Part shown: positions 4,430 to 63,536 of the stretch, in pieces | How positions within the stretch are numbered: position 1 is the stretch's first letter | How the letters are laid out: each line of letters opens with the position of its first letter | Notes under the pieces: generated by a model | Told to the model about the DNA's origin: nothing | The model's database searches: none | The model's input: only the letters and a program-made list of their open reading frames with translations | Program-made: the position numbers and the translations under genes | DNA from: Candidatus Nitrotoga arctica | Lineage (GTDB): Bacteria > Pseudomonadota > Gammaproteobacteria > Burkholderiales > Gallionellaceae | Length of the DNA stretch: 64,000 nt | Direction: 5' to 3' | NCBI RefSeq assembly: GCF_918378365.1 | Contig: NZ_OU912926.1 | Location: forward strand, 2,170,001-2,234,000

Positions 4430-5541
4430 TTGACCCGGCCATTAAATAGTTTCAAGCGGCATATTTTACGCGTGGGTCTTGAAAGTAAGAAGCGACGCGT
4501 CTAGGGTTGCTCTCCAGCATTGTCATGTGATCGTTGGCAGCGGCACGCAATTTCTCCTTGGTACGCACCTGCACTTTCGATCCGATAGCCTGCTTCAAGT
4601 CTGAATTCAACCGCTCTTCCGGATTCAATTCCGGACTGTAGCTGGGCAAATAGAAGCATTCGATTTTTTCCTTGTTTTTTTCCAGCCAAGCCTTCACGGG
4701 TTTGCTGTGGTGCACTCTCAAATTATCCAGAATCAAGAACACTTTTCTCCCCGCATCCTTGATCAGTAGTTCAAGGAATTCAATGAGCCGATCCGAGTCG
4801 AAATTTCCGTCGATAATCTGCCAACGTGCACAGCCTTTGTTGGTTACAGTGGCAATCATCGATAGCCGCTGCCGCGTACCGGGTGCATAGGCCACCGGCG
4901 TTTTTCCCTTAGGCGCAAAACCACGCCCGCGTACATCGGTATTAACCAGTGCCGTCTCATCACCCCAGTGAATTTCTCCGCCCTCGGTACGGGCGCGCCT
5001 GGCAATCTCCGGATACTGCTCGTCGAGCCATTGCTTTACCGCCTCCGGTCGCTGTTCGTACGCTTTCTTGATTGGCTTTTGGGGTGTAAATCCCCAACGT
5101 TTGAGATAATGCCCTACCGTCCGGATCGGCATGGAAATATGGTACTCCTGCTTGATTAACTGACTTACCGCGGCACGATTCCACAACGCAAAATCCATTT
5201 TCATCTGCTCAGGGCGTTTCTCGCAAATGAACTGTTGCAATAGCCGCTCTTGTTCTTCGGACAGGCTGCGGTTCTCACCTGCACGACGGCCTCGCTTTCC
5301 GGGTTTTATTCCAGCCGTGCCGCCTGTTTCATAGAGTCGAATGATCTTCCTTACAGCGGGGTAGCTCAACTCCGAAACTTGAGCTATTTGCGCGGGGGTG
5401 CCACCACGCTTATGTAGCCGGATAACTTGCCTGCGGCGTTCATGCAGTGCTTCGTCTTTGAGGGTTCTGGCGTCTATTTTTTCCATGCAACTATGGCATG
5501 CAAAATCACCAAAAGTTCAAACTATTTAATGGCCGGATCTA
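4430..5541 (-). mobile_element. IS630-family insertion sequence, copy A
   Basis: A complete 1112-bp element. Its imperfect terminal inverted repeats share CCGGCCATTAAATAGTTT; the left end reads TTGACCCGG and the right end, read inward, TAGATCCGG. The target dinucleotide TA is present on both sides (4428-4429 and 5542-5543), the TA duplication expected of IS630/Tc1-mariner elements. It contains one transposase gene. Copy B, about 370 bp further right, has the same architecture but different ends and protein. Confidence 0.9.
4452..5486 (-). CDS. IS630-family transposase (copy A)
   Basis: A 344-residue DDE transposase with no visible lesion. Residues 15-60 form the first helix-turn-helix (RRRQVIRLHKRGGTPAQIAQ), followed by a winged-helix segment. 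The catalytic triad lies in HWGDETALVN (Asp), FLILDNLRVHHSKPV (Asp) and YSPELNPEERLNSDLK (Glu). The gene fills almost the whole element. The core (TPQKPIKKAYEQRPEAV and the catalytic blocks) is nearly the same as in copy B, while the N-terminal domain differs clearly, so these are sister elements rather than a recent duplication. Confidence 0.93.
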   Translation of the reverse strand: MEKIDARTLKDEALHERRRQVIRLHKRGGTPAQIAQVSELSYPAVRKIIRLYETGGTAGIKPGKRGRRAGENRSLSEEQERLLQQFICEKRPEQMKMDFALWNRAAVSQLIKQEYHISMPIRTVGHYLKRWGFTPQKPIKKAYEQRPEAVKQWLDEQYPEIARRARTEGGEIHWGDETALVNTDVRGRGFAPKGKTPVAYAPGTRQRLSMIATVTNKGCARWQIIDGNFDSDRLIEFLELLIKDAGRKVFLILDNLRVHHSKPVKAWLEKNKEKIECFYLPSYSPELNPEERLNSDLKQAIGSKVQVRTKEKLRAAANDHMTMLESNPRRVASYFQDPRVKYAA

Positions 5542-5706
5542 TAAGGCAAGAAAAAATCCACTTGAAAAATAAAAGAAATCGACAAGGCAAATTGAGGAAA
5601 TATTTACCAAGCCGATCGAACCTGGAAAAAATCCAGTTACCCAGATTCAACATTCTTTATTCCACTTTTCTGTATTGGAAAATACAGCACTCGTTTGGTG
5701 ACAGCC

Positions 5707-5908
5707 ATGTTGCATTTACTTTGCCCCTTGCGCTACGTTATAGCACTCGTCTTAGGTCTGCAGCTTGTCAATCCTGCCGCTGCGGCTGAACCTGAATGGT
5801 TGTACGCGGTAAATCCCGGCGACACTTTGATCAGCGTTGCGGCAGACTATTTGGCCAATCCCAACGACTGGCACCAGCTTCAAAAACTCCATGACGTGAC
5901 TGAACCTA
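5707..5908 (+). pseudogene. 5' part of a LysM-FecR envelope protein, cut by IS630
   Basis: The start at ATG 5707 gives a signal peptide (hydrophobic stretch ending in NPAAAA) and a LysM motif (YAVNPGDTLISVAADYLANP...WHQLQKLHDV) expected to bind peptidoglycan. The frame is stopped by IS630 copy B at the TA 5907-5908. Joining the flanks across the IS restores ...TEPKRLM, the normal continuation of such LysM domains. The rest of the gene, a FecR domain, is found at 7024-7280 in a shifted frame. Intact relatives are LysM-FecR proteins of the envelope. The gene was already damaged apart from the IS. Confidence 0.75.
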
Positions 5909-7023
5909 TTGATCCGGCACGAATTATTCATGAAGCCGCGTAGGCGACTTTTGGGTCGCCGAAATAACGGCGCACGCGTTCGGGGTTTTGCTCAAGCATG
6001 GTCATGTGATCAGTCGCAGCAGCTCTGAGTTTTGCCTTGGTGCGCACTGGCACCTTTGAAGTGATGACGTGTTTGAGATCCGCATTCAGTCTTTCTTCGG
6101 GGTTGAGTTCAGGGCTGTAGCTGGGCAAGTAGAACAACTCGATTTTCTGTGCGTTCTCGGCAGCCCAAGCCTTTACAGGTTTGCTGTGATGAACTCTCAA
6201 GTTGTCCAGTATCAGAAACACCTTGCGGTCTGTATCCTTGATGAGCGCCTCCAGAAATTCAATGAGCTTGTCGGAGTTAAATGCCTCATCAATAATCATC
6301 CAGCGCGTTTTACCCTGATTGGTTACCGTCGCAATCATCGATAGCTTGTGGCGCGTGCCGCCTACTGCGAACGTCACAGGTGTCTTGCCCACCGGCGCAT
6401 AGCTCCTGCCTCTGACATCCGTGTTGACTAGCGCCGTCTCGTCGCCCCAGTGAATTTCCGCACCTTCTGTTTTTGCTCTGGCTTCAATGGCCGGATATTG
6501 TTCATCAAGCCAAGCCTGGACGGCTTCAGGCCGCTGCTCGTATGCTTTTTTAATGGGTTTTTGTGGTGTAAAACCCCAACGTGCCAAGTAGTTGCCTACT
6601 GCCCGAATAGACAGCTTGATACCGTGCGCCAGCTCAATGTGCTGGCGCACAGCGGGCCTGCTCCATAGCGCAAAATCCATCTTGAGTTGTTCGGGGCGTC
6701 TGTCGCAGATGGTTTGTTGAATCGCCAGCTCTTGGCTAACCGTCAAGCGGCGTCCACTGCCAGGTTTTTTACCCCGAACGCCGGGCTTGAGTGCCCCCGA
6801 ACCTTCAGCCTTATACAACCGCAGCGCCGTATTGACTGCCGTCCAGCTCAGTCCCGTTTGCACCACGATCTCCATCACCGCCACACCTTTGCGGTGCATA
6901 CGAATAACTTGCTTGCGTCGTTCATGCAGTACTTCTCGCGACTGCTTGCGGGCATCTTCTTTTTCCATACTCCATAGACATCGAAAACCAATAAAAATTC
7001 ATTTATAAATCGTGCCGGGTCTA
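5909..7023 (-). mobile_element. IS630-family insertion sequence, copy B
   Basis: A complete 1115-bp element flanked by the TA duplication (5907-5908 and 7024-7025). Its ends are TTGATCCGGCACGA on the left and, read inward from the right, TAGACCCGGCACGA; the repeats continue imperfectly towards ATTCATGAA / AAATGAA. It carries one transposase gene and interrupts a LysM-FecR gene. Confidence 0.9.
5928..6968 (-). CDS. IS630-family transposase (copy B)
   Basis: A 346-residue DDE transposase of normal IS630 length. It has an N-terminal helix-turn-helix (RRKQVIRMHRKGVAVMEIVV) and the triad in HWGDETALVN (Asp), FLILDNLRVHHSKPV (Asp) and YSPELNPEERLNADLK (Glu). It is intact and may be active. The N-terminal third differs clearly from copy A (for example SWTAVNTALRLYKAEGSG against SYPAVRKIIRLYETGGTA), while the catalytic domain is close, so the two are sister elements. 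Confidence 0.93.
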   Translation of the reverse strand: MEKEDARKQSREVLHERRKQVIRMHRKGVAVMEIVVQTGLSWTAVNTALRLYKAEGSGALKPGVRGKKPGSGRRLTVSQELAIQQTICDRRPEQLKMDFALWSRPAVRQHIELAHGIKLSIRAVGNYLARWGFTPQKPIKKAYEQRPEAVQAWLDEQYPAIEARAKTEGAEIHWGDETALVNTDVRGRSYAPVGKTPVTFAVGGTRHKLSMIATVTNQGKTRWMIIDEAFNSDKLIEFLEALIKDTDRKVFLILDNLRVHHSKPVKAWAAENAQKIELFYLPSYSPELNPEERLNADLKHVITSKVPVRTKAKLRAAATDHMTMLEQNPERVRRYFGDPKVAYAAS

Positions 7024-7280
7024 TAAGCGGCTCATGTCTCCTGCTCACCCAGAACACGCAAGTGAGCCTAGCGGAAATGATGCTCTTTGGAAAAACTGGC
7101 ATGGCCCAAACGGTTATCGAGTTGAATCGAGGCAACCTGGACACCCACGTAACGGAACAGCAGAAACCATCCGCACGTTATGAAATCAAGTCACGCGCGC
7201 TCAATCTGGTTGTGCGAGGAACCCGCTTTCGCGCCCATGTGAGCAACATAGATCACATCTCGCGTAGCGAAGTGCTTGCG
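7024..7280 (+). pseudogene. FecR-domain remnant of the split LysM-FecR gene
   Basis: After IS630 copy B the next frame encodes a FecR-like segment: FGKTGMAQTVIELNRGN, then TRYEI-like ARYEIKSRALNLVVRGTRFRAHV. In intact relatives this domain follows a LysM domain like that at 5707-5908. The frame differs from the one entering the IS, so there is also a deletion or frameshift between the two domains. The homology stops at about 7280, where GC content rises sharply and the same open frame runs straight into a hydroxy-acid dehydrogenase tail. That makes this a recombination breakpoint. Confidence 0.65.
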
Positions 7281-7664
7281 GCGATCCAGGTCTCCAATCA
7301 CGGCGGACGCGCGCTCGACGGCACGCCGGCCGTCATCACCGTGCTGCCTTCGATCGCGGAGGTGGTCAAGGGCGACGTGCCCCTGATTCTGGACAGTGGC
7401 ATCCGGCGCGGCACCGACGTAGTGAAGGCGCTGGCGCTGGGCGCCAACGCGGTACCCATCGGCCGGCCGGTCATGTTCGGCCTGACCTTGGGCGGTGCGA
7501 GCGGCGTCGATAGCGTAATCAACTACTTGCGCCGCGAAACCGTGAACACCGTCCTGCACTTGGGCGCCAACCGCATCGGCGCGCTCGGCCGACAGCACTT
7601 GCGCCAGTCCGCTGCGCCGGGCACGCAAGTGCCGGTGCAAGCGGGCGCGGACCGGTTAGCCTAA
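7281..7664 (+). pseudogene. C-terminal fragment of FMN-dependent alpha-hydroxy-acid dehydrogenase
   Basis: About 127 residues match the C-terminal part of the LldD/glycolate-oxidase family: VSNHGGRALDGTPA with the conserved Arg, LILDSGIRRGTDVVKALALG, then AVPIGRPVMFGLTLGG (FMN phosphate binding). The catalytic N-terminal two thirds are absent. Upstream the frame runs into the FecR remnant, making a chimeric open frame. A truncated barrel like this should not be active. Confidence 0.8.
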
Positions 7665-7861
7665 CGACCGGCCGAATGAAGAGGCACCCGTAAGTGTCAC
7701 GAACCGGTTCAGACAAGTACCACGAAGCGCCGCGGGTTGGCCTGAGGAGCCGAACCGCAGGCGTGCGCACCCCCCCGTGCAACGTGGGCACGTCTAAAGC
7801 TTGGGCGACAGGCTCCATCGCTATCGCGGCCCGTTAATCCACTTTTTAAAGGACAAGAACC

Positions 7862-8656
7862 ATGACAACCACTCAACTGCATCAACGCGACGTCACCAGG
7901 GTCGACGCCCCCTCAATCGGCCGGGGGGCATGAGCGGCGACCATCGCGTGCGCCTGCTCGTTGCGCTGGGCAGCGACCGACCCATTCCTGCTGCTGATGG
8001 AAGACTGGTTCCCGGTCGGCGTGTTCGATCACCATCCGCATCGCGGCATCGAGACGTTGACGTATGTGATCGACGGCGTGATCGATCATTACGACAACCA
8101 TGGCAACAAAGGCACCCTTCACCCCGGAGACGTCCCATGGATGGCGGCAGGGCGCGGGCTGATCCACAACGAGCAGCCGGCTGCGGGGCTGACCGTCCAT
8201 TCGTTGCAGCTTGGGTCAATTTGCCAAGGGCTGACAAACTCGTCCCGGCGCACTACCAGGACATCCTCGCTGACGAAGTGCCGGTGCGTCACGAAGCCGG
8301 AGCAAAAATCCGGGTGTTCTCCGGCGTCTCCGACGTCTCCGGCGAGTTGAAATCGCCGACGCAGAACCATACACCCGTGACCATGGTTGAAATCCGGTTG
8401 CAGCCCGGTGCCATCATCGAGCAAAACCTTTCTGCCGACTACAACGGCTTCGTCGTCGTTTTCACCGGCAGCGCAGCCATCGGCGCCGCATCCACTTTTG
8501 TCGAGGCTGGACAGGTCGCTTGGTTGGCACAGAGCCAAGCACCCAGCGGCGTCTCCCTGACCGGTGGCGAGCACGGTGTGCGGGGCCATCCTGTTCGCGG
8601 GAAAGCCGCTGCGCGAGGCGGAATTCCGCGCCCAGAGCGAACAGTTTGGTTTGTAG
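7862..8656 (+). pseudogene. broken pirin gene
   Basis: The start MTTTQLHQRDVTRVDAPSIG follows a good Shine-Dalgarno (AAAGGA), but the frame soon stops. The pirin core then appears in another frame (7961 on: WFPVGVFDHHPHRGIETLTY, AAGRGLIHNEQPA), shifts again near 8217 (NLPRADKLVPAHYQDI, then VFTGSAAIGA) and once more near 8580, where AILFAGKPLREAEFRAQ ends at TAG 8654. At least three frameshifts are needed to restore one product. Neighbouring long genes are intact, which argues against general sequencing error. The metal-site motifs survive, so decay may be fairly recent. Confidence 0.8.
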
Positions 8657-55674: not shown

Positions 55675-56430
55675 AAATTAATTTTTATATTTGGTGACGT
55701 TGTAATTTCAAGGTCTTTGATCGTTAAGCATAACCATCAAGATGGGTACTCACACTGGTGCGCGCGTCTATAACGATATCCTGTCGTTGCCTGCAGTTGA
55801 AATCGTGATCCCAATCTGCTAACGAATACATATAAGCATCTATCTGCCGCCCTTCCCAAACTTGTTAAACCCGCGATCTTATTGGCGGTGGTGAACCTCG
55901 TTGGACTAAACCTTGGAGAACCGAACCTATGGGGATTGTAAGGTTTTGAAGTGTGGCGTCAACCAACCCATCTTTAACTCCCCCCAAAGAACCATCTTTC
56001 CTAATCATGCAATTAGCGCGTACTGATATTTTTACAAGCGTATTTGCTCGTTATTTTCGTCAGCCAACCAGTTTTTTGATTCCTCCGAGTGCAGGGTTTA
56101 TCCCCAGTGCTTGATAAATTGCCAGCAACACGGCTTCCGCAAATGTACTTTTGCGGACATGTATTATTAGACCATCCGTGCACCGCAAGCTGAAAGTTCA
56201 CAGGGAGGGTTAAATCATCTCCTTAAAGACTACCTGTAAAGCACCTCTCTTCCATTTATCGAATCCGTCGAAAATCAGTTTGTTGTAAACTAAAAGCATC
56301 CGCAATTCATTTCGATCCCCTGCAGGTCTTTTGGCAGGATGAAAATCGAGATGTCAGGATTGTTCGGCTTTCCTGAATTTTTTAAATGAATCAAGTTGGC
56401 AGTTTTATAAACTGCCAACGGAGTAGCGTT
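55675..56430. other. intergenic region upstream of the porin gene
   Basis: About 750 bases, mostly without coding character. A minus-strand frame at 56013-56201 is unsupported. The region should contain promoters for the leftward VanZ fusion and the rightward porin, and ends in the hairpin at 56395-56419. Confidence 0.45.
56395..56419 (+). promoter_or_regulatory. leader hairpin abutting the porin ribosome binding site
   Basis: GTTGGCAG - TTTTATAAA - CTGCCAAC is a perfect 8-bp inverted repeat with a 9-nt loop. The SD GGAG (56420-56423) begins at the very next base. It may be an operator or an RNA hairpin that affects ribosome access. Function is inferred from position only. Confidence 0.45.
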
Positions 56431-57753
56431 ATGGACATTCATCGTACGATCCCTCATTGGCTACTGGCTTGTATTGCGACTCACTTCGGGCTTTCTCTCG
56501 CCTATGGGGTAGAGGAAAGTTGGAACGCCAAGTTCCAGACTACCTACGTCTGGCAGAGCAAAGCGCCATTCAATGCCGCCTACAGCGGACGCAACAGCCT
56601 CTCTACGGAGCGGGAAAAAAGCTATTCCTTCACCGGAACCGCCTTCCTCGGCATGCGGCCATGGGCGGGAGGCGAGTTGTATTTCAACCCGGAAGTGGTT
56701 CAAGGCGTCCCGCTCTCCAACCTCACGGGACTGGGCGGATTAACCAATGGCGAAATCGCCCGCACCTCTGGGCCCAAGCCAAAACTTTACATGGCACGGG
56801 CCTTCTTGCGCCAAAGCTGGGGATTGGGTGAGATACAAGATGCAGTTGATTCTGGTGCCAATCAACTGGCCGGGAAAGTTCACCAGCGCCTAATAGCCCT
56901 CACCGTGGGCAAACTTTCGGTAACGGATCTATTCGACAACAACGTTTACAGCCACGATCCGCGGACCCAGTTTATCAACTGGTCTCTCATGACCGCGGGC
57001 GCTTACGACTATGCAGCCGATGCGCGTGGTTATTCCTGGGGCGCCGCGCTGGAATATTATTACGACGACTGGGCCATACGCGCTGGCCGCTTCATCCAGC
57101 CTAAAGTGCCTAACCAGCTCGTCCTGGATCCGAATATATTCAGTCACTACGGCGATCAGATCGAAGTGGGGCATGGGCATGTGCTTATCGGTCAACCGGG
57201 CAAGATACGTCTGCTGGCCTTCCGCAACCGCACCTTGATGTCACGCTTCCAGGATGCGTTGGATTACGCCACGCTCAACGGCGGCGTGCCGAATATCAAC
57301 AATGTGCGTAACGGTGAACAGATAAAATACGGCTTTGGCCTCAATCTGGAACAACAGCTAATCCAAAATGTGGGTATGTTCGGCCGCGCCAGTTGGGCAG
57401 ACGGTAAAACAGAAACCTACGCCTTTACCGAAATAGACAATTCACTTGCTGCAGGGGCAGTCGTCCAAGGCAGTGCCTGGGGTCGTATTCAGGACAGCAT
57501 GGGCATCGCACTCGTGCAAAATGGACTGTCGCGTCAACGACGCGACTACTTGGCCGCCGGCGGCATCAGTTTCTTCATTGGCGACGGCGCTCTCAAATAC
57601 CGACGGGAAAATATTCTCGAAACCTACTACAGTCTTGGCGCTATCAAAAACACCTGGCTTACACTGGACTACCAACACATCCGCAATCCCGCGTACAACA
57701 CCGACCGTGGGCCGGTTTCCATCGGTGCTGTTCGATTGCGTGGGGTGTTTTAA
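56431..57753 (+). CDS. OprB-like outer-membrane porin
   Basis: A 440-residue protein with a signal peptide (WLLACIATHFGLSLAYG) and a beta-barrel pattern of alternating aromatic strands, matching carbohydrate-selective porin OprB relatives: AKFQTTYVWQSKAPFNAAYS, GGELYFNPEVVQG, VGKLSVTDLFDNNVYSHDPR, ending in a C-terminal Phe (RLRGVF), as outer-membrane barrels do. ATG 56431 has GGAG 7 nt upstream. It converges on the modA-like gene 60 bp away. In this setting it may pass small solutes or oxyanions, but the substrate is not shown by sequence. Confidence 0.85.
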   Translation: MDIHRTIPHWLLACIATHFGLSLAYGVEESWNAKFQTTYVWQSKAPFNAAYSGRNSLSTEREKSYSFTGTAFLGMRPWAGGELYFNPEVVQGVPLSNLTGLGGLTNGEIARTSGPKPKLYMARAFLRQSWGLGEIQDAVDSGANQLAGKVHQRLIALTVGKLSVTDLFDNNVYSHDPRTQFINWSLMTAGAYDYAADARGYSWGAALEYYYDDWAIRAGRFIQPKVPNQLVLDPNIFSHYGDQIEVGHGHVLIGQPGKIRLLAFRNRTLMSRFQDALDYATLNGGVPNINNVRNGEQIKYGFGLNLEQQLIQNVGMFGRASWADGKTETYAFTEIDNSLAAGAVVQGSAWGRIQDSMGIALVQNGLSRQRRDYLAAGGISFFIGDGALKYRRENILETYYSLGAIKNTWLTLDYQHIRNPAYNTDRGPVSIGAVRLRGVF

Positions 57754-57776
57754 GGCTAGCAGCCTATCGGATTTTT
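57753..57776 (+). terminator. possible terminator between porin and modA-like gene
   Basis: AGGCT - AGC - AGCCT, then ATCGGATTTTT. A short stem beginning within the porin stop codon and a delayed T-run; weak. Confidence 0.3.
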
Positions 57777-57812
57777 CTTGCAAACCCACTCTAATCATCA
57801 TGATCGAAATAG

Positions 57813-58646
57813 CTAAGGATTAGGTTTAGCTTCCGCTACAGTGGTAAATCCGTATTGACTGATGATGCCCTGAGCTTGCGGGCTCATAATGAATAAAGCA
57901 AAACGATAAGCAGCATCATGGCTTGCAGCGGTTGAGGTCAGCACCGATAAACCATAATCTGCCCTAATGGCAGCTTCCGCAGGTAATTCAATCATAGTAA
58001 AGGCAGGGTCTGGGGTAGTTTGACGCGAACTGCAATACCCAATTGAGATATCAATTTTATGCTGTTCAAAAAAATAGAGCGGAGCGGTTTTTCCTGCGGG
58101 TACGGGCGGATTTGTCTTGCCTCCACCTAATTGCTGCGCTTTAGCCTGCAATATGGCCTCAGCACTTGGCCGCACCTTATCTATTTTGGAAAACATCATC
58201 CAAGTGTAATCTCCGCCGGGATCAGATTTAGGAGTTGATGTTCCTAGCCCGACTTTTGGATCCAGTAGCCGATCCACAAAATTTTCCTTGGTCAGGCCGA
58301 ATTCTGGCAGAGCTTTTGCGCACAATCGATTACGTGCCATCACTACAGGGGGCGTTGCCAAGCCTTTATCCGCCAGCTTTTGCGGGTGCGCCATATTGGC
58401 GGAAGCAAATATATCTGCTGGCTCACCCTGCTCTATGCGCTCCAATAACAACCCAGCCGGGCCAAAATCAGCTTGCACGGCTTCGCCGGTTTTTTCCTGA
58501 TAGGCCTTAATGACAGCAGTCAGGGCACCAGTAAGGCTACCTGCTGCCAGCACCTTAATTGGCGGGGCTGCCAAGACATGGGGTGAGACTATTGCCAACC
58601 AGGAAAGCATAGCCAAGGTAAAGTGAAAGCTTTTAAGTTTTAGCAT
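57813..58646 (-). CDS. ModA-like periplasmic oxyanion-binding protein
   Basis: A 277-residue substrate-binding protein of the ModA/WtpA-like fold. A signal peptide (FTLAMLSWLAIVSPHVLA) is followed by the ModA opening VLAAGSLTGALTAVIKAYQE, GEPADIFASANMAHPQKLAD and GTSTPKSDPGGDYTWMMF. GAAGG lies 6 nt before ATG 58646. It is encoded 55 bp downstream of a TonB-dependent receptor in the same direction, and no ModB/ModC genes follow it. Molybdate or tungstate are the likeliest ligands given the ModE-like site upstream of the receptor; related proteins bind other anions. Confidence 0.85.
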   Translation of the reverse strand: MLKLKSFHFTLAMLSWLAIVSPHVLAAPPIKVLAAGSLTGALTAVIKAYQEKTGEAVQADFGPAGLLLERIEQGEPADIFASANMAHPQKLADKGLATPPVVMARNRLCAKALPEFGLTKENFVDRLLDPKVGLGTSTPKSDPGGDYTWMMFSKIDKVRPSAEAILQAKAQQLGGGKTNPPVPAGKTAPLYFFEQHKIDISIGYCSSRQTTPDPAFTMIELPAEAAIRADYGLSVLTSTAASHDAAYRFALFIMSPQAQGIISQYGFTTVAEAKPNP

Positions 58647-58701
58647 AAGTAACCTTCGCAATGTAATTTAATGATGTAATTTAATATCGACTTCACCTGA
58701 A

Positions 58702-60825
58702 TCAGAAATCTATCTGTAATGAGGCACGCAGGGTGCGCGGCGCGCCTAAAGTGCCGGTACCATTGCCGGTTGCGCTAAAACCGTTTTGGCCATTGGGCGT
58801 AATATTGGCCCAGTAGCGCTCATTGGCGAGATTATAAAGAGTCAGGTTCCAGCTCGCTGCTTTGCCCATTATTTGGCTGTAATAACGTGCGCCCACATCT
58901 ACTGTCGTAAAACCCGCCACCGAATAAGTGTTGGTATGATTTCCTGGGCGGCTTGTCGCATTCGCAATATGTAGATTGACCGATAGGCCGGGCGCCGCCG
59001 CAATGCGATAATCAAGCAATACACTGCTTACTACCTTGGATAAACCCAGAATCTGCTTGCCTTCAGTGGCAGCAGTTAGTGTATTTTCAAGACGTGGATC
59101 AAGGAAAGTTACGCCACTGTATATCGTCAGGTCTCGGGTTAAGGTACCGTTAGCGGTTAATTCCAGGCCATTATTTATCTGGTCGCCTTGCACCCTGAAT
59201 ACGCCATCTGCTCCAATATAGGGATAAGGTCGCTCAACGCGGAAGAGTGCCGCAGTCAAATTCATTTTCGCAATACTGACTTTATAGCCTAATTCCCACT
59301 GCTTGCTACGATACGGCGCCAATATCGCTTGCGGATTATTGGGCACTGGATCTGCCTGCTGCAGGCTGTCCGCATAAGACCCATACACCGTCATATTGCT
59401 TTGCGGCTTATAAGAAAGGATGGCGTTGGTACTAATGCCATCCTTGTCATAGCGGCTGGTGTCCACGCCAGCTTTGTTATTGCTGCGTGCTGTGATCCAG
59501 CTTTGGCTGGCAATCAGCGTTGCTGACCATTGCTTATTGAAGCTAATGGTATCGCCTATGTTGAGAGACTGCTGGCGCGTGGTCTGGGATTTATAACGAT
59601 CTTTGAAATCTGGAAATACTGGCTCATTGAAAATAACAGGATTATCCAGGCTGGCGCTTCCAAGAGTAATTGCACCTATCTTGTTGGGTGTATAGCGATC
59701 CCAAGTAAATCCAGTGCTGGAAAATATCAGATCATGCGTCCAATCTCCGGTTTTAGCATGACCATTGAGCGCGATCGTATTACTGAGAATACGATCCAGA
59801 CTGAAAGTCGTCGTAGCGGCTGTCGTAGTGTAGCTCCCTGCATTATTTGTCAGTGTATTGGTGGGTACGGTCGAAGCACGATCACTATCTTGTTGCAACA
59901 AGCCCGCCGATATTTGCCAGTCAGCGTTAAAACTATGCTTAAGTTTACCGCTGAAAGTTTTCGTAATATTGTTATCACCGCCAAAAGGCTGGCCATAACC
60001 CACCCGCGTGGGATCAGGCGCTGAAGGAAAACGCACATTGTCGTTCTGCAAGCTAAAAGTTCCGGGAAAACCCATGCTGAGGTAATGGTAGCGACTGGCA
60101 TTCAGCTCCAATTTGGTGACATCGGTAAAATTGACATCCACTGCCAGACTCACCAGCTTACGTTCAAGCCGACTACGGTCAACGTAACCCTCGCCGGTAT
60201 CATTCAATAAATTAAGGCGGTAACCAAACACTTTTCCCTTATCCACATAACCGCCCAAATCGACACTGCCCAGAGCCGCGCTCTGCGTGCCATAGCCCAC
60301 ACCGATCCGCCTCCGAGGCTCATCAGTCGGACGCTTTATTACATAATTGAAGGTACCAGCCGGATTAGAAGGCCCATAGATCGCTCCTGCCAACCCATTC
60401 AACACTTCGATGCGCTCAAACTGCTCAATGGGATAATCGGTAGTGGCTGCGATATTCATACCGTCGATGCGTGTATTCTGTACCACGCCAGCTTGCAGGC
60501 CACGCGTTTGCGGCCGAATATTCTCGCCCTGAACGGATGGCAAATAACGAAAAGCTTCACGCACGCTTTTAAACTGCTGGTTTCGCATCAGCTCCGCGGG
60601 AATCACATCGATCGCATAAGGAGTATCCAACAACGATTTTTCACTTAAGGGGCCAATTTTTACTTTGTCTGTGCGGTAATCCGAATCAACTTTTTTTCCG
60701 CTGACTTTAATTTCACCCAAGAAAGCTGGGTCTTCTTCCGCTAAAACCGTGACAGATAAACCCATATTAGTAGAAAGAACGGCCAGAAAAATAATCCGTC
60801 GAGAAGAAAAAAGCTTGTTTGGCAT
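58702..60825 (-). CDS. TonB-dependent outer-membrane receptor
   Basis: A 707-residue receptor in the siderophore-receptor size class. Signal peptide ~1-29, plug domain ~50-165 (LDTPYAIDVIPAELMRNQQF, TRIDGMNIAATTDYPIEQFE, GAIYGPSNPAGTFNYVIKRP) and a 22-strand barrel ending DF. It imports a ligand across the outer membrane with TonB/ExbBD energy. It shares a transcript with a ModA-like binding protein and is preceded by a ModE-like palindrome 58 bp before its start. That context suggests a molybdenum- or tungsten-related ligand rather than ferric siderophore; this is inference. No strong SD precedes ATG 60825. Confidence 0.9.
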   Translation of the reverse strand: MPNKLFSSRRIIFLAVLSTNMGLSVTVLAEEDPAFLGEIKVSGKKVDSDYRTDKVKIGPLSEKSLLDTPYAIDVIPAELMRNQQFKSVREAFRYLPSVQGENIRPQTRGLQAGVVQNTRIDGMNIAATTDYPIEQFERIEVLNGLAGAIYGPSNPAGTFNYVIKRPTDEPRRRIGVGYGTQSAALGSVDLGGYVDKGKVFGYRLNLLNDTGEGYVDRSRLERKLVSLAVDVNFTDVTKLELNASRYHYLSMGFPGTFSLQNDNVRFPSAPDPTRVGYGQPFGGDNNITKTFSGKLKHSFNADWQISAGLLQQDSDRASTVPTNTLTNNAGSYTTTAATTTFSLDRILSNTIALNGHAKTGDWTHDLIFSSTGFTWDRYTPNKIGAITLGSASLDNPVIFNEPVFPDFKDRYKSQTTRQQSLNIGDTISFNKQWSATLIASQSWITARSNNKAGVDTSRYDKDGISTNAILSYKPQSNMTVYGSYADSLQQADPVPNNPQAILAPYRSKQWELGYKVSIAKMNLTAALFRVERPYPYIGADGVFRVQGDQINNGLELTANGTLTRDLTIYSGVTFLDPRLENTLTAATEGKQILGLSKVVSSVLLDYRIAAAPGLSVNLHIANATSRPGNHTNTYSVAGFTTVDVGARYYSQIMGKAASWNLTLYNLANERYWANITPNGQNGFSATGNGTGTLGAPRTLRASLQIDF

Positions 60826-60882
60826 ATAGGCTCGCGATGAGAAATGATGGGGAATTTACCCAAATCCAGCCTACAGATCAGG

Positions 60883-60912
60883 AATCGTTATATTTTAATG
60901 TATATAACGATT
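60883..60912 (-). promoter_or_regulatory. ModE-like operator upstream of the TonB receptor
   Basis: AATCGTTATAT (60883-60893) and ATATAACGATT (60902-60912) form a perfect 11-bp inverted repeat with an 8-bp spacer. The half-site resembles the CGTTATAT...ATATAACG pattern of operators bound by the molybdate-responsive repressor ModE. It lies 58-87 bp upstream of the receptor start, in promoter position. No modE gene is in the window. Confidence 0.7.
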
Positions 60913-61452
60913 ATTAACCAATCAATTCTGACAGTCACAAATTCTGAAGCCGGATTTCTGGAATTAAAAACCAAAGTTCCTACTAAAAAATCTGAAATTA
61001 AATTTCAGAATCAATCATTATGCAAAACATAATTAAGCTAAATAAAATGAAACCCACCATTGCAATGGGCGGATGAACAATACATTACCAACGTGCCGAT
61101 ACAGTGGGCAGTACATACGTTTCAGTGTTAATTTGGCTAAACGGCGCTCCAATGTATTGGAGTGGCACATTGATGACTTTCTCTCCCTGAGAGGAGCTCC
61201 AAACGTGATGGAATTTTCTATAGTCTCGGCATGGCCGTGACAGTAGGCGTCAAGATCGACAGCGACGTGGAGACCGTTCGCGCGTAACTTACGTCTTCAG
61301 AGCAGCGAAGGACGGCTCAAAGCCCAAGGACTAAACCGCTCGCGCGGTAATTGGCGCTCCGATTTAGCGCTTGTGGGTAGTTGACAGAAGCGCACCGCTG
61401 CTTATGTTGAGAAGTGAGGCAATCCGCCTCATTTTTCGATAGGAGCAGCATC
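60913..61452. other. region between the ModE-like site and the IS91 module
   Basis: About 540 bases without a gene. It contains a perfect hairpin CTCCAAT-GT-ATTGGAG (61147-61162) and, just before the recombinase SD, TGAGGC-AATCC-GCCTCA followed by TTTTT (61415-61436), which could be a terminator or part of the element end. The left end of the IS91 module must lie here, but I cannot define it. Confidence 0.45.
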
Positions 61453-62328
61453 ATGAACTCAACGACACACCCCCTCAGTCCGTTGCGTCAACGCTTTCTT
61501 GACGACATGCGGATGCGCAAACTTGCCGCCAAGACCCAGAGCGGTTACCTCCGCGCGGTCAGCCGGTTTTATGACTGGCTGAAACGTTCGCCGGATACCG
61601 CAACGGCCGAAGACTTACGGCGTTATCAGATGTACTTGGTCGATCACGGCATGTCGTCGATCTCACTCAACATCACGATAACCGGATTGAAGTTCTTCTT
61701 CAATAGCACCCTTGATCAGCCCGAGTTAATGAGGCACATGCATCCGGTGCGCGAGCCGCGCAAGATTCCAATTGTCTTGAGTCAGGAAGAAGTCGCGCGC
61801 CTGATCGGCTGTGCCGGAAACCTCAAGAACCAAACGGCATTGTCAGTTGCCTACGGCGCGGGACTGCGCGTCAGCGAGGTCGCTGCGCTCAAAGTCAGTG
61901 ATGTCGATAGCGAACGCATGACCCTGCGCATTGAACAGGGCAAAGGCAGCAAGGATCGCTACGCGATGCTCTCCCCCGTCCTGCTGGAGAGCCTGCGGAC
62001 TTGGTGGCGCGCTGCTCGTGCCTCAGGTTGGATGCTCAATGGGGGCTGGTTGTTTCCGGGCCAGGATCCCGCTGACCCGATCAGCACCCGTCAGCTCAAC
62101 CGAGTCATCCATGAGGCGGCCAAGGTCGCCCAGATCGACAAACGCGTCTCGATGCACACCCTGCGTCACAGCTTCGCTACTCACTTGTTGGAACAGAAGG
62201 TGGATATTCGGGTGATTCAGGTTTTGCTGGGGCATAAAAAACTGGAGACGACAGCACTCTATACGCAAGTGGCGACCAAGATTCTGCGCGAAGTGGTCAG
62301 TCCGTTGGATAGCCTGAATTCCATGTAG
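61453..62328 (+). CDS. tyrosine recombinase associated with IS91 transposase
   Basis: A 291-residue tyrosine recombinase with a SAM-like N-terminal domain (KLAAKTQSGYLRAVSRFYDW) and the catalytic set: Arg in GAGLRVSEVAALKVSDVD, Lys region GKGSKDRYAML, HTLRHSFATHLLE, then LGHKKLETTALYTQV with the nucleophile Tyr. AGGAG (61441-61445) precedes ATG 61453. It is 20 bp from an IS91 transposase in the same direction, a pairing known from several IS91-family elements, where the recombinase is thought to help transposition. Intact. Confidence 0.92.
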   Translation: MNSTTHPLSPLRQRFLDDMRMRKLAAKTQSGYLRAVSRFYDWLKRSPDTATAEDLRRYQMYLVDHGMSSISLNITITGLKFFFNSTLDQPELMRHMHPVREPRKIPIVLSQEEVARLIGCAGNLKNQTALSVAYGAGLRVSEVAALKVSDVDSERMTLRIEQGKGSKDRYAMLSPVLLESLRTWWRAARASGWMLNGGWLFPGQDPADPISTRQLNRVIHEAAKVAQIDKRVSMHTLRHSFATHLLEQKVDIRVIQVLLGHKKLETTALYTQVATKILREVVSPLDSLNSM

Positions 62329-62348
62329 ACACCGTGTAACTCACCAGC

Positions 62349-63536
62349 ATGGTGCGTCCCGTACTGGAGGTCGCTGATATCTTCCGCGCCCAGGGTCCGG
62401 CATGGCGAGCAGCTCAGCAAGGGCATTTGAGTTTAGGGCAACTGAAGGTCATGTCAGCCATCGAACAGTGCCGCAGCGCGGCGCTGGGAGGGCATGTGTT
62501 GCATTGTCCAGCGTGTGCGCATGACGAAATCGCGTACAACTCCTGCCGTAACCGGCATTGCCCAAAGTGTCAGGCCAGCGCCGCCAAGCGTTGGCTCGAA
62601 GCCCGTCAGACCGAGCTGTTGCCGGTGGACTATTACCATGTCGTATTCACCTTGCCCGCGCCGATCAGCGCCATCGCTTACACCAACAAGGCGGTGATCT
62701 ATCGTTTACTGTTTGAGGTGGCGGCCGAGACGCTGCATACCATCGCCGCCGATCCCGAGCATCTGGGGGCACGCATTGGGGCAACGTTGGTGCTGCACAC
62801 TTGGGGATCGGCGCTTACACATCATCCTCATGTGCATGGCATTGTTCCCGGCGGTGGGTTGTCATTGGATGGGGAGCGTTGGGTGGCGTGCAAGCCGGGC
62901 TTCTTCTTGTCGGTGCGTGTGTTGTCGCGATTGTTTAGGCGGCGCTTCTTGGAAGAGCTGGCGCAGGTTCATCGTGCTGGTCAATTGCAGTTCTTCGGTG
63001 AGTATGCGCAGCTGAGTGAAGCGACTGCCTTCGCAGAGTGGCTTGCTCCGCTGCGCAAGTGCGAATGGGTGGTATATGCCAAACGCCCCTTTGCCGGACC
63101 TGCGGCAGTGTTGGTGTATCTGTCGCGTTACACCCATCGGGTGGCGATCGCCAATTCTCGCCTGATCGCGCTGGATGAGCGTGGTGTGACTTTTAAGTGG
63201 AAAGATTACCGAGAGACGGGGGGAACACGCCACAAGACGATGACGCTCAAGACCGACGAATTCATGCGGCGCTTTCTATTACATGTGCTGCCCAGTGGAT
63301 TTCACCGTATCCGTCACTACGGCCTGATCGCTAATTCCGGTCGGCGGGAGAATCTTGCACGAGCGCGCGAACTGTTGAATGTGGCACCGGTGGAGCCCAA
63401 AGAGATTGATGTGTCGAACGAAACGGTTACACCGACCTTCGTTTGCCGGGAATGTGGTGCGGCGATGATCGTGACTGGAATATTGGCACGCGCATCAAAC
63501 ATCCGAGCGCCACCACCGTGTCGAGGTGTGACATGA
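62349..63536 (+). CDS. IS91-family transposase (HUH type)
   Basis: A 395-residue rolling-circle transposase. The N-terminal zinc finger is HCPACAHDEIAYNSCRNRHC; the HUH nuclease motif is ALTHHPHVHGIVPGGG. The catalytic Tyr lies in VYLSRYTHRVAIANSRL, and a second Cys pair is near the C-terminus (FVCRECGAAM). Length is normal for IS91; the last residues (IRAPPPCRGVT) look unusual and may run into flanking sequence. Follows its partner recombinase by 20 bp. Confidence 0.92.
   Translation: MVRPVLEVADIFRAQGPAWRAAQQGHLSLGQLKVMSAIEQCRSAALGGHVLHCPACAHDEIAYNSCRNRHCPKCQASAAKRWLEARQTELLPVDYYHVVFTLPAPISAIAYTNKAVIYRLLFEVAAETLHTIAADPEHLGARIGATLVLHTWGSALTHHPHVHGIVPGGGLSLDGERWVACKPGFFLSVRVLSRLFRRRFLEELAQVHRAGQLQFFGEYAQLSEATAFAEWLAPLRKCEWVVYAKRPFAGPAAVLVYLSRYTHRVAIANSRLIALDERGVTFKWKDYRETGGTRHKTMTLKTDEFMRRFLLHVLPSGFHRIRHYGLIANSGRRENLARARELLNVAPVEPKEIDVSNETVTPTFVCRECGAAMIVTGILARASNIRAPPPCRGVT

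Follow-up and report, generated by a model that had tools for sequence, protein, structure and literature searches.

A putative ModE-controlled operon of a TonB receptor and a ModA-like protein in Candidatus Nitrotoga arctica, a likely route for molybdenum across the outer membrane

Passage of molybdenum (Mo) across the outer membrane is usually ascribed to porins. In the sections consulted, the published E. coli consensus of the ModE operator is given as ATCGNTATATA-N6-TATATANCGAT (PMC545781), and a near-identical form is found in PMC2700814. A different outer-membrane route for molybdate has been reported in ModA secreted by the type VI secretion system (T6SS) together with IcmP, a metalloproteinase outer-membrane protein by description (PMC8602904). 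The mod cluster of Azotobacter chroococcum holds a TonB receptor, Achr_39300, noted as 'potentially for molybdate' (PMC4465626), and Mo-binding organic compounds of Azotobacter are known as molybdophores (PMC3440940). Here we describe, in a 64,000-nucleotide stretch of the Candidatus Nitrotoga arctica genome (contig NZ_OU912926.1, positions 2,170,001 to 2,234,000; the window), a two-gene operon in which a TonB-dependent receptor (TBDR1) and a ModA-like binding protein (ModA1) lie behind a putative ModE operator. The open-licence papers searched, as far as their text was available, describe neither ModE boxes before TonB receptors nor a TBDR1-ModA1 operon family, and name no tested receptor for Mo-chelates. 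We consider it likely that the locus is a ModE-repressed operon for TonB-driven, high-affinity uptake of Mo, possibly also of tungsten (W), through the outer membrane. The features that carry this reading are the following.

60883..60912, no strand assigned: putative ModE-type operator, a perfect 11-bp inverted repeat with an 8-bp spacer, ending 57 bp 5' of the receptor start codon
60910..60938, minus strand: sigma-70-like promoter GTGACT-17-AATAAT, a consensus match only
58702..60825, minus strand: TonB-dependent receptor TBDR1, 707 aa, siderophore-receptor class by domains, TIGR01783 and predicted fold
57813..58646, minus strand: ModA-like binding protein ModA1, second gene of the operon, presumably periplasmic, by family models and predicted fold

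A ModE-type palindrome at 60883-60912 had been claimed in a sequence-only reading of the window, and this was confirmed. The site, AATCGTTATAT-N8-ATATAACGATT, matches the core ATCGNTATAT-N8-ATATANCGAT with 0 mismatches, and differs from the E. coli consensus as printed in PMC545781 at one innermost base only. It is the sole match with at most 3 mismatches within the 64-kb window, where 0 were expected (100 shuffles); the palindrome is real, unique in the window and no chance match. Since the -10 hexamer of the promoter overlaps the operator edge by 3 bp, bound ModE could block this promoter, which would fit repression. Sigma-70-like consensus matches are not in excess in the region (3 found, 5.7 expected in shuffles). 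Upstream of the operator, at a distance of 0.5-2.6 kb (61414-63536), are genes for a tyrosine integrase and an IS91-type transposase.

The window belongs to a single 3,301,051-bp contig (3.30-Mb genome), in which CGTTATAT-N8-ATATAACG was found at 10 sites with at most 3 mismatches. Only two of them are perfect: the first precedes TBDR1, the other a second TonB receptor (TBDR2) near modABC. A 1-mismatch site is found some 0.4 kb ahead of modE. The cluster at 2,479-2,492 kb (L020) consists of modE (5170-6000, with HTH_1 and two TOBE stretches), a Mop protein, a two-piece modE-like gene, an Alginate_exp protein, modA, modB and modC, after which TBDR2 and a small Oxidored_molyb protein follow on the opposite strand. 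Similarity between the two receptors is remote (26% over 62 residues in the best segment), so their sites do not descend from a recently duplicated gene. There are 13 Plug matches in the genome and, apart from TBDR1 and TBDR2, none of the remaining 11 falls within 5 kb of any listed site.

To assess conservation, an aligned set of 18 TBDR1 sequences was used to scan named genomes for related loci. Two peptide patterns were matched by 84 stretches, 37 of which held a relative, resulting in 36 distinct loci. These are phylogenetically related and were gathered by TBDR1 similarity, and 10 of the 36 come from Paraburkholderia, so the set is not independent. It covers Paraburkholderia, Caballeronia, Burkholderia, Herminiimonas, Janthinobacterium, Luteibacter, Rhodanobacter, Rudaea, four Nitrobacter, Beijerinckia, Acetobacter, Caulobacter, sphingomonads and others, which are alpha-, beta- and gammaproteobacteria. 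Box-bearing loci span these three classes and include the four Nitrobacter.

Boxes were scored in the 300 nt upstream of the receptor with the published core, and not with one trained on these data. Partners were counted by tblastn, since calling of open reading frames (ORFs) was poor in some GC-rich loci. Lack of conservation of the palindrome before related receptors had been named beforehand as a ground for refutation. It is conserved: a box with at most 4 mismatches is present in 26/36 loci, and a ModA1 homologue stands directly downstream of TBDR1 in 35/36, the last locus (L070) ending at a contig edge. At most 3 and 2 mismatches were found in 17/36 and 7/36, respectively, and the dinucleotide shuffle means for the three thresholds are 0.07, 0.01 and 0.00 loci, with a maximum of 1 locus in 200 shuffles at the loosest. 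The other 496,367 positions of the loci hold only 5 sites at the 4-mismatch threshold. When the spacer was varied at 3 mismatches, 8 nt gave the 17 loci, 2 and 4 nt gave 2 each and the other ten spacers 0. At the Acetobacter locus (L064) the site is AT-rich and may have arisen by chance. A 4-bp start/stop overlap of the receptor and ModA1 frames is possible in 19 of the 35 pairs.

The closest relative found with a TBDR1 locus is Candidatus Nitrotoga sp. SPKER, of the same genus and 95% identical, which keeps the operator. Both receptors carry boxes there (0 mismatches for TBDR2, 1 for TBDR1), and a third site with 2 mismatches resembles the one before modE in our genome. When the two loci are aligned, operator and operon of TBDR1 are kept, while similarity ends some 20 bp upstream of the operator; the two genomes thus differ on that side.

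The receptor claimed behind the operator is supported by Plug (PF07715, 57.2 bits) and barrel (PF00593, 97.4 bits) domains, both exceeding the Pfam cut-offs, and TIGR01783 TonB-siderophor is matched just over its limit (224.3 bits, cut-off 223.5). The predicted fold (mean predicted local distance difference test, pLDDT, 79) matches FemA/BauA/FhuA with a template modelling (TM) score of about 0.8, FoxA also being near. By sequence and predicted fold, TBDR1 belongs with these chelate receptors. Across 50 sequences, conservation reaches 96% in plug segment 98-122, compared with 68% on average; since plug loops usually contact the ligand, a single shared ligand is likely. ExbB/ExbD-like ORFs are visible by eye in L022. 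In one Paraburkholderia locus (L074, 7001-9093) the receptor gene is broken into two frames, with box and partner gene kept.

The ModA-like protein predicted as the next gene was found directly behind TBDR1. It is assigned to SBP_bac_11 by Pfam and exceeds the cut-off of TIGR01256 modA (75.2 bits, cut-off 62.5), the best stretch covering residues 40-117 only; six longer PRK03537 molybdate-binding models match as well, all below their own cut-offs. The ORF (57813-58661, minus strand) reaches a TTG at 58661, the ATG at 58646 being the likelier start, and the N-terminus resembles an ordinary Sec signal, as judged by eye. In a Foldseek search with the predicted structure (mean pLDDT 91.8), the 15 top matches (query TM 0.58-0.69) comprise 13 to ModA, WtpA or putative molybdenum-binding proteins and 2 to the YvgL-like 7tav; other binding proteins of the same fold are found further down. 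Judged by predicted fold and genomic company, ModA1 would work like a ModA.

The pocket was compared with classical ModA-type sequences from the collected loci, residue roles being those known from ModA structures. ModA1 lacks the classical oxyanion-loop residues: the Ser/Thr of the second loop is Ala in GPAG, and the APYG-type loop is replaced by a conserved DPGGDY, a GYCS loop also being present. The loops conserved within the ModA1 family itself include AAGS, GPAG, STPxxDPGGDY and GYCS, in addition to two conserved cysteines. Because of these differences, binding of free molybdate is not derivable from homology.

ModE-type helix-turn-helix (HTH) genes were found in 25/25 genomes hand-picked from the 36 (best E-values 8.5e-31 to 2.5e-18). 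The curated cut-off is exceeded in 12 of the 25; among 14 control genomes there are 7 with a match and 2 over the cut-off. Linkage to mod genes is seen in Herminiimonas (L048), with modE, modA, modB, the TBDR1-ModA1 pair and TBDR2 within 15 kb, and in Rhodanobacter (L060), where modA, modB, modC, an Oxidored_molyb homologue, TBDR2, TBDR1 and ModA1 form one row. In our genome, the cognate modBC is not part of the TBDR1-ModA1 operon. A permease encoded elsewhere had been predicted, and modBC is present at two other genome sites, L020 10474-12504 (2485 kb) and L021 6824-8854 (345 kb), the two copies of 2,031 bp being 100% identical. The second copy, at 344-347 kb, lies behind another modE-type gene without a modA between, so it could be used by ModA1. 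As for the absence of permease genes from the window itself, it holds for ModC, as no TOBE-bearing ModC is present; no separate scan for ModB was made there.

The operator, the gene pair and its conservation, the ModE-type genes and the modBC genes elsewhere are read directly from sequence and comparison. Control of the TBDR1 operon by ModE is strongly supported by the comparison, and highly probable. When cytoplasmic molybdate is plentiful, Mo-loaded ModE on 60883-60912 would block the promoter; at Mo scarcity repression would be lifted and TBDR1 and the ModA-like protein would be produced together. TBDR1 would then import a Mo species with TonB energy, a Mo-chelator complex being likelier than free molybdate, with a molybdophore or a borrowed siderophore as candidate chelator. 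The periplasmic ModA-like protein would receive the cargo and hand it over to a ModBC permease encoded elsewhere, which would complete import; the genome has two copies to offer, one without an adjacent modA. That the cargo is Mo or W, as regulation, partner and neighbourhood indicate, is quite probable. Given such a cargo, we moderately favour the chelated form, because TBDR1 is of the chelate-receptor class and the ModA1 pocket is altered. The most specific version, in which receptor and partner are a dedicated, ModE-switched importer of chelated Mo and ModA1 is a ModA relative with its pocket rebuilt for the complex, falls somewhat short of an even chance. Of the outer-membrane Mo/W uptake system proposed in the sequence-only reading, the ModE-type operator and the receptor/ModA-like operon stand. 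The part given to a porin is not supported, and neither is binding of free molybdate by homology.

A number of observations weigh against uptake of Mo under ModE control. TBDR1 is rare: counting our own genome, it was found in 1/369 class genomes (E<=1e-90), 2/150 family genomes (E<=1e-60) and 3/399 order genomes (E<=1e-150), and two of the three order-sample matches (39-41% identical) have neither box nor ModA1 in 1.5-kb flanks. Ten of the 36 loci (L043, L051, L059, L060, L065, L067, L068, L071, L073 and L077) are without a box at 4 mismatches in 300 nt, three of which (L059, L071, L073) have 5 mismatches. Among the ten is L060, the locus with the best mod linkage, where the best upstream box has 8 mismatches and none with at most 5 occurs elsewhere in the locus. 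At 4 mismatches a spacer of 8 gives 26/36, but spacers of 10, 4, 2 and 6 give 8, 6, 4 and 2, respectively (9 gives 1/36, all others 0); even spacers probably catch shifted TATA repeats. The loose search of our genome yields 10 sites against 17 for the reversed pattern, and therefore only sites with 0-1 mismatch are informative. An all-against-all comparison of the called ORFs in the 36 loci shows no constant third gene family, such as one for chelator synthesis; the largest other cluster covers 7/36 loci, and its printed member looks like a LysR-type regulator. The pocket loops of ModA1, unlike those of classical ModA, belong here too.

Four other explanations were weighed against the favoured one. 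TBDR1 may import the free oxyanion, molybdate or tungstate, with the ModA-like protein as a high-affinity trap. The oxyanion is what ModE senses, and the nearest solved fold to the partner is ModA. A TonB receptor for a plain metal ion has also been reported in a review, MnoT for Mn2+ (PMC8602904, available section). The siderophore-receptor class of TBDR1 by sequence and fold, together with the ModA1 pocket, speaks against this, and we regard import of the free oxyanion as rather unlikely. The ModA-like protein could instead be an extracellular carrier, picking up molybdate and then docking to TBDR1, in the manner of the T6SS pairs ModA/IcmP and TseM/MnoT. In the available sections, P. aeruginosa ModA is reported to be H2-T6SS-secreted with IcmP as outer-membrane partner and B. 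thailandensis TseM to pair with the TonB receptor MnoT (PMC8602904, PMC11734730), and the constant pairing of receptor and binding protein in our loci would suit such an arrangement. The apparent Sec signal of ModA1 is ordinary, however, the partner is a TonB receptor and not IcmP, and a constant third gene is missing, although neighbours were not annotated for secretion genes; there is little more than a slim chance of such a carrier.

The pair might also import iron or vanadium needed at Mo shortage, ModE control being a Mo-sparing response. According to the available text of PMC9542535, the alternative-nitrogenase activators are under ModE repression in Azotobacter vinelandii, and some genes for TonB siderophore receptors are VnfA1-dependent. 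We hold this to be very unlikely, as the partner is ModA-like, the receptors stand beside mod genes in Rhodanobacter and Herminiimonas, and our own genome has TBDR2 near modABC. Fur-like boxes, for which no shuffle control was made, occur in the 36 upstream regions in 0 loci with up to 4 mismatches, in 1 with up to 5, in 6 with up to 6 and in 11 with up to 7. The explanation as an iron-siderophore receptor of the usual kind, its palindrome being there by chance, has only the family name in its favour, TIGR01783 being just over its cut-off. Conservation of the box speaks strongly against it, as does the second receptor with a perfect box; Fur control is not supported, no Fur box with at most 3 mismatches being present in the 3-kb locus (L001), and the probability that remains for this explanation is negligible.

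Import of Mo under ModE control, as favoured here, can further be viewed against TBDR2 and against wider samples. Relatives of TBDR2 (E<=1e-100) occur in 16/399 order-sample genomes, our own included, with a box (at most 4 mismatches, within 600 nt) in 9/16; the wrong spacers 6, 7, 9 and 10 give 1, 1, 0 and 4 of 16, respectively. Several adjoin modE, Mop or modA (L082, L084, L085). An SBP_bac_6 binding protein follows TBDR2 relatives with 2-mismatch boxes at L083 191-1528 (minus strand) and L093 3574-4833 (plus strand), which may be a second pairing of receptor and binding protein under a ModE-type box. The small protein accompanying TBDR2 (Oxidored_molyb, PF00174, 177 aa; L020 14290-14823, minus strand) has a signal peptide by eye, with relatives in L060, L082, L084 and L085 and a homologue also in L043. 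The Alginate_exp outer-membrane protein (L020 8086-9825), situated between the modE-type genes and modA, has a 4-mismatch box at 8032-8059; homologues after modE-type genes, with ModE-like boxes of 3-4 mismatches, are found in five more genus loci (L100, L102, L106, L108, L111). It is a third candidate for an outer-membrane Mo route.

Sites with at most 3 mismatches occur in 13/19 genomes of the genus sample (30 in all), and since the reversed control is also found in 9/19 (11 sites), part of this loose set is background. In the class sample, 7/369 genomes hold a box with at most 1 mismatch, against 2 with the reversed control. Among the six other class genomes with boxes, modE/modA are adjacent in two (L037, L039), and the L042 box, lying within a coding frame, probably reflects chance. 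In L040 a perfect box at 6766 precedes a Porin_O_P phosphate-selective-type porin (6861-8390), near a formate-dehydrogenase-subunit-like gene by eye; the porin may be one for oxyanions that belongs to the Mo regulon. Two 1-mismatch ModE-type boxes, in L038 (5600) and L041 (7483), lie beside a ydhR-type gene (PF08803) and a TetR-like gene.

One further gene adjoins the operon in the window.

56431..57753, plus strand: OprB-family porin by Pfam match, converging neighbour (ORF 56386-57753; start at 56431 or 56386)

An OprB-like porin had been described as converging on the ModA-like gene and as belonging to the system. The convergence is correct, while its role as a third part was rejected: it is without a box (at most 3 mismatches), and it is present in 1/36 related loci only, a locus of the same genus (L044) in which it stands 4 kb beyond ModA1. 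These neighbour counts refer to flanks of at most 7 kb, some of which were ended by contig edges.

With a receptor and a binding protein encoded in one operon under the apparent Mo sensor of the cell itself, Mo passage of the outer membrane becomes directly testable. Nitrite oxidoreductase, the key enzyme of nitrite oxidisers, needs Mo. Candidatus Nitrotoga being a nitrite oxidiser, the operon bears on nitrite oxidisers and on Mo limitation of freshwater nitrogen cycling. If the reading is true, a dedicated chelate importer would serve nitrite oxidisers (Nitrotoga, Nitrobacter), lineages including nitrogen fixers, and soil Burkholderiales, and TBDR1, TBDR2 and the ModE-linked porins would be a whole outer-membrane branch of the molybdenum regulon. 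Receptors annotated 'siderophore receptor' beside a 'molybdate-binding protein' may be misnamed.

Among known systems, the ModE regulon of modABC in E. coli, Azotobacter vinelandii and Geobacter sulfurreducens has the same operator sequence and spacing in the sections consulted (PMC545781, PMC2700814), and ModE-type genes are present here as well. The targets in our case are TonB receptors and a ModA-like protein that has no modBC of its own, and not the inner-membrane transporter alone. Achr_39300 is likewise a TonB receptor proposed for molybdate, and adjoins modE/G and modABC; it is likened by description only, as the passage in PMC4465626 mentions it briefly, with no analysis of operator, conservation or partner. 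Azotobacter molybdophores would be the cargo of TBDR1 under the favoured reading, and the available text of PMC3440940 names no outer-membrane receptor for them. ModA/IcmP of P. aeruginosa and TseM/MnoT of B. thailandensis also combine a metal-binding protein with an outer-membrane importer according to the sections seen; their binding proteins are reported to be T6SS-secreted, whereas the pair in the window is a two-gene operon under a ModE-type box. Finally, FemA, BauA, FhuA and FoxA share fold and sequence family with TBDR1, but these receptors take iron complexes, while TBDR1 stands under the box of a Mo sensor and is paired with a ModA-like protein.

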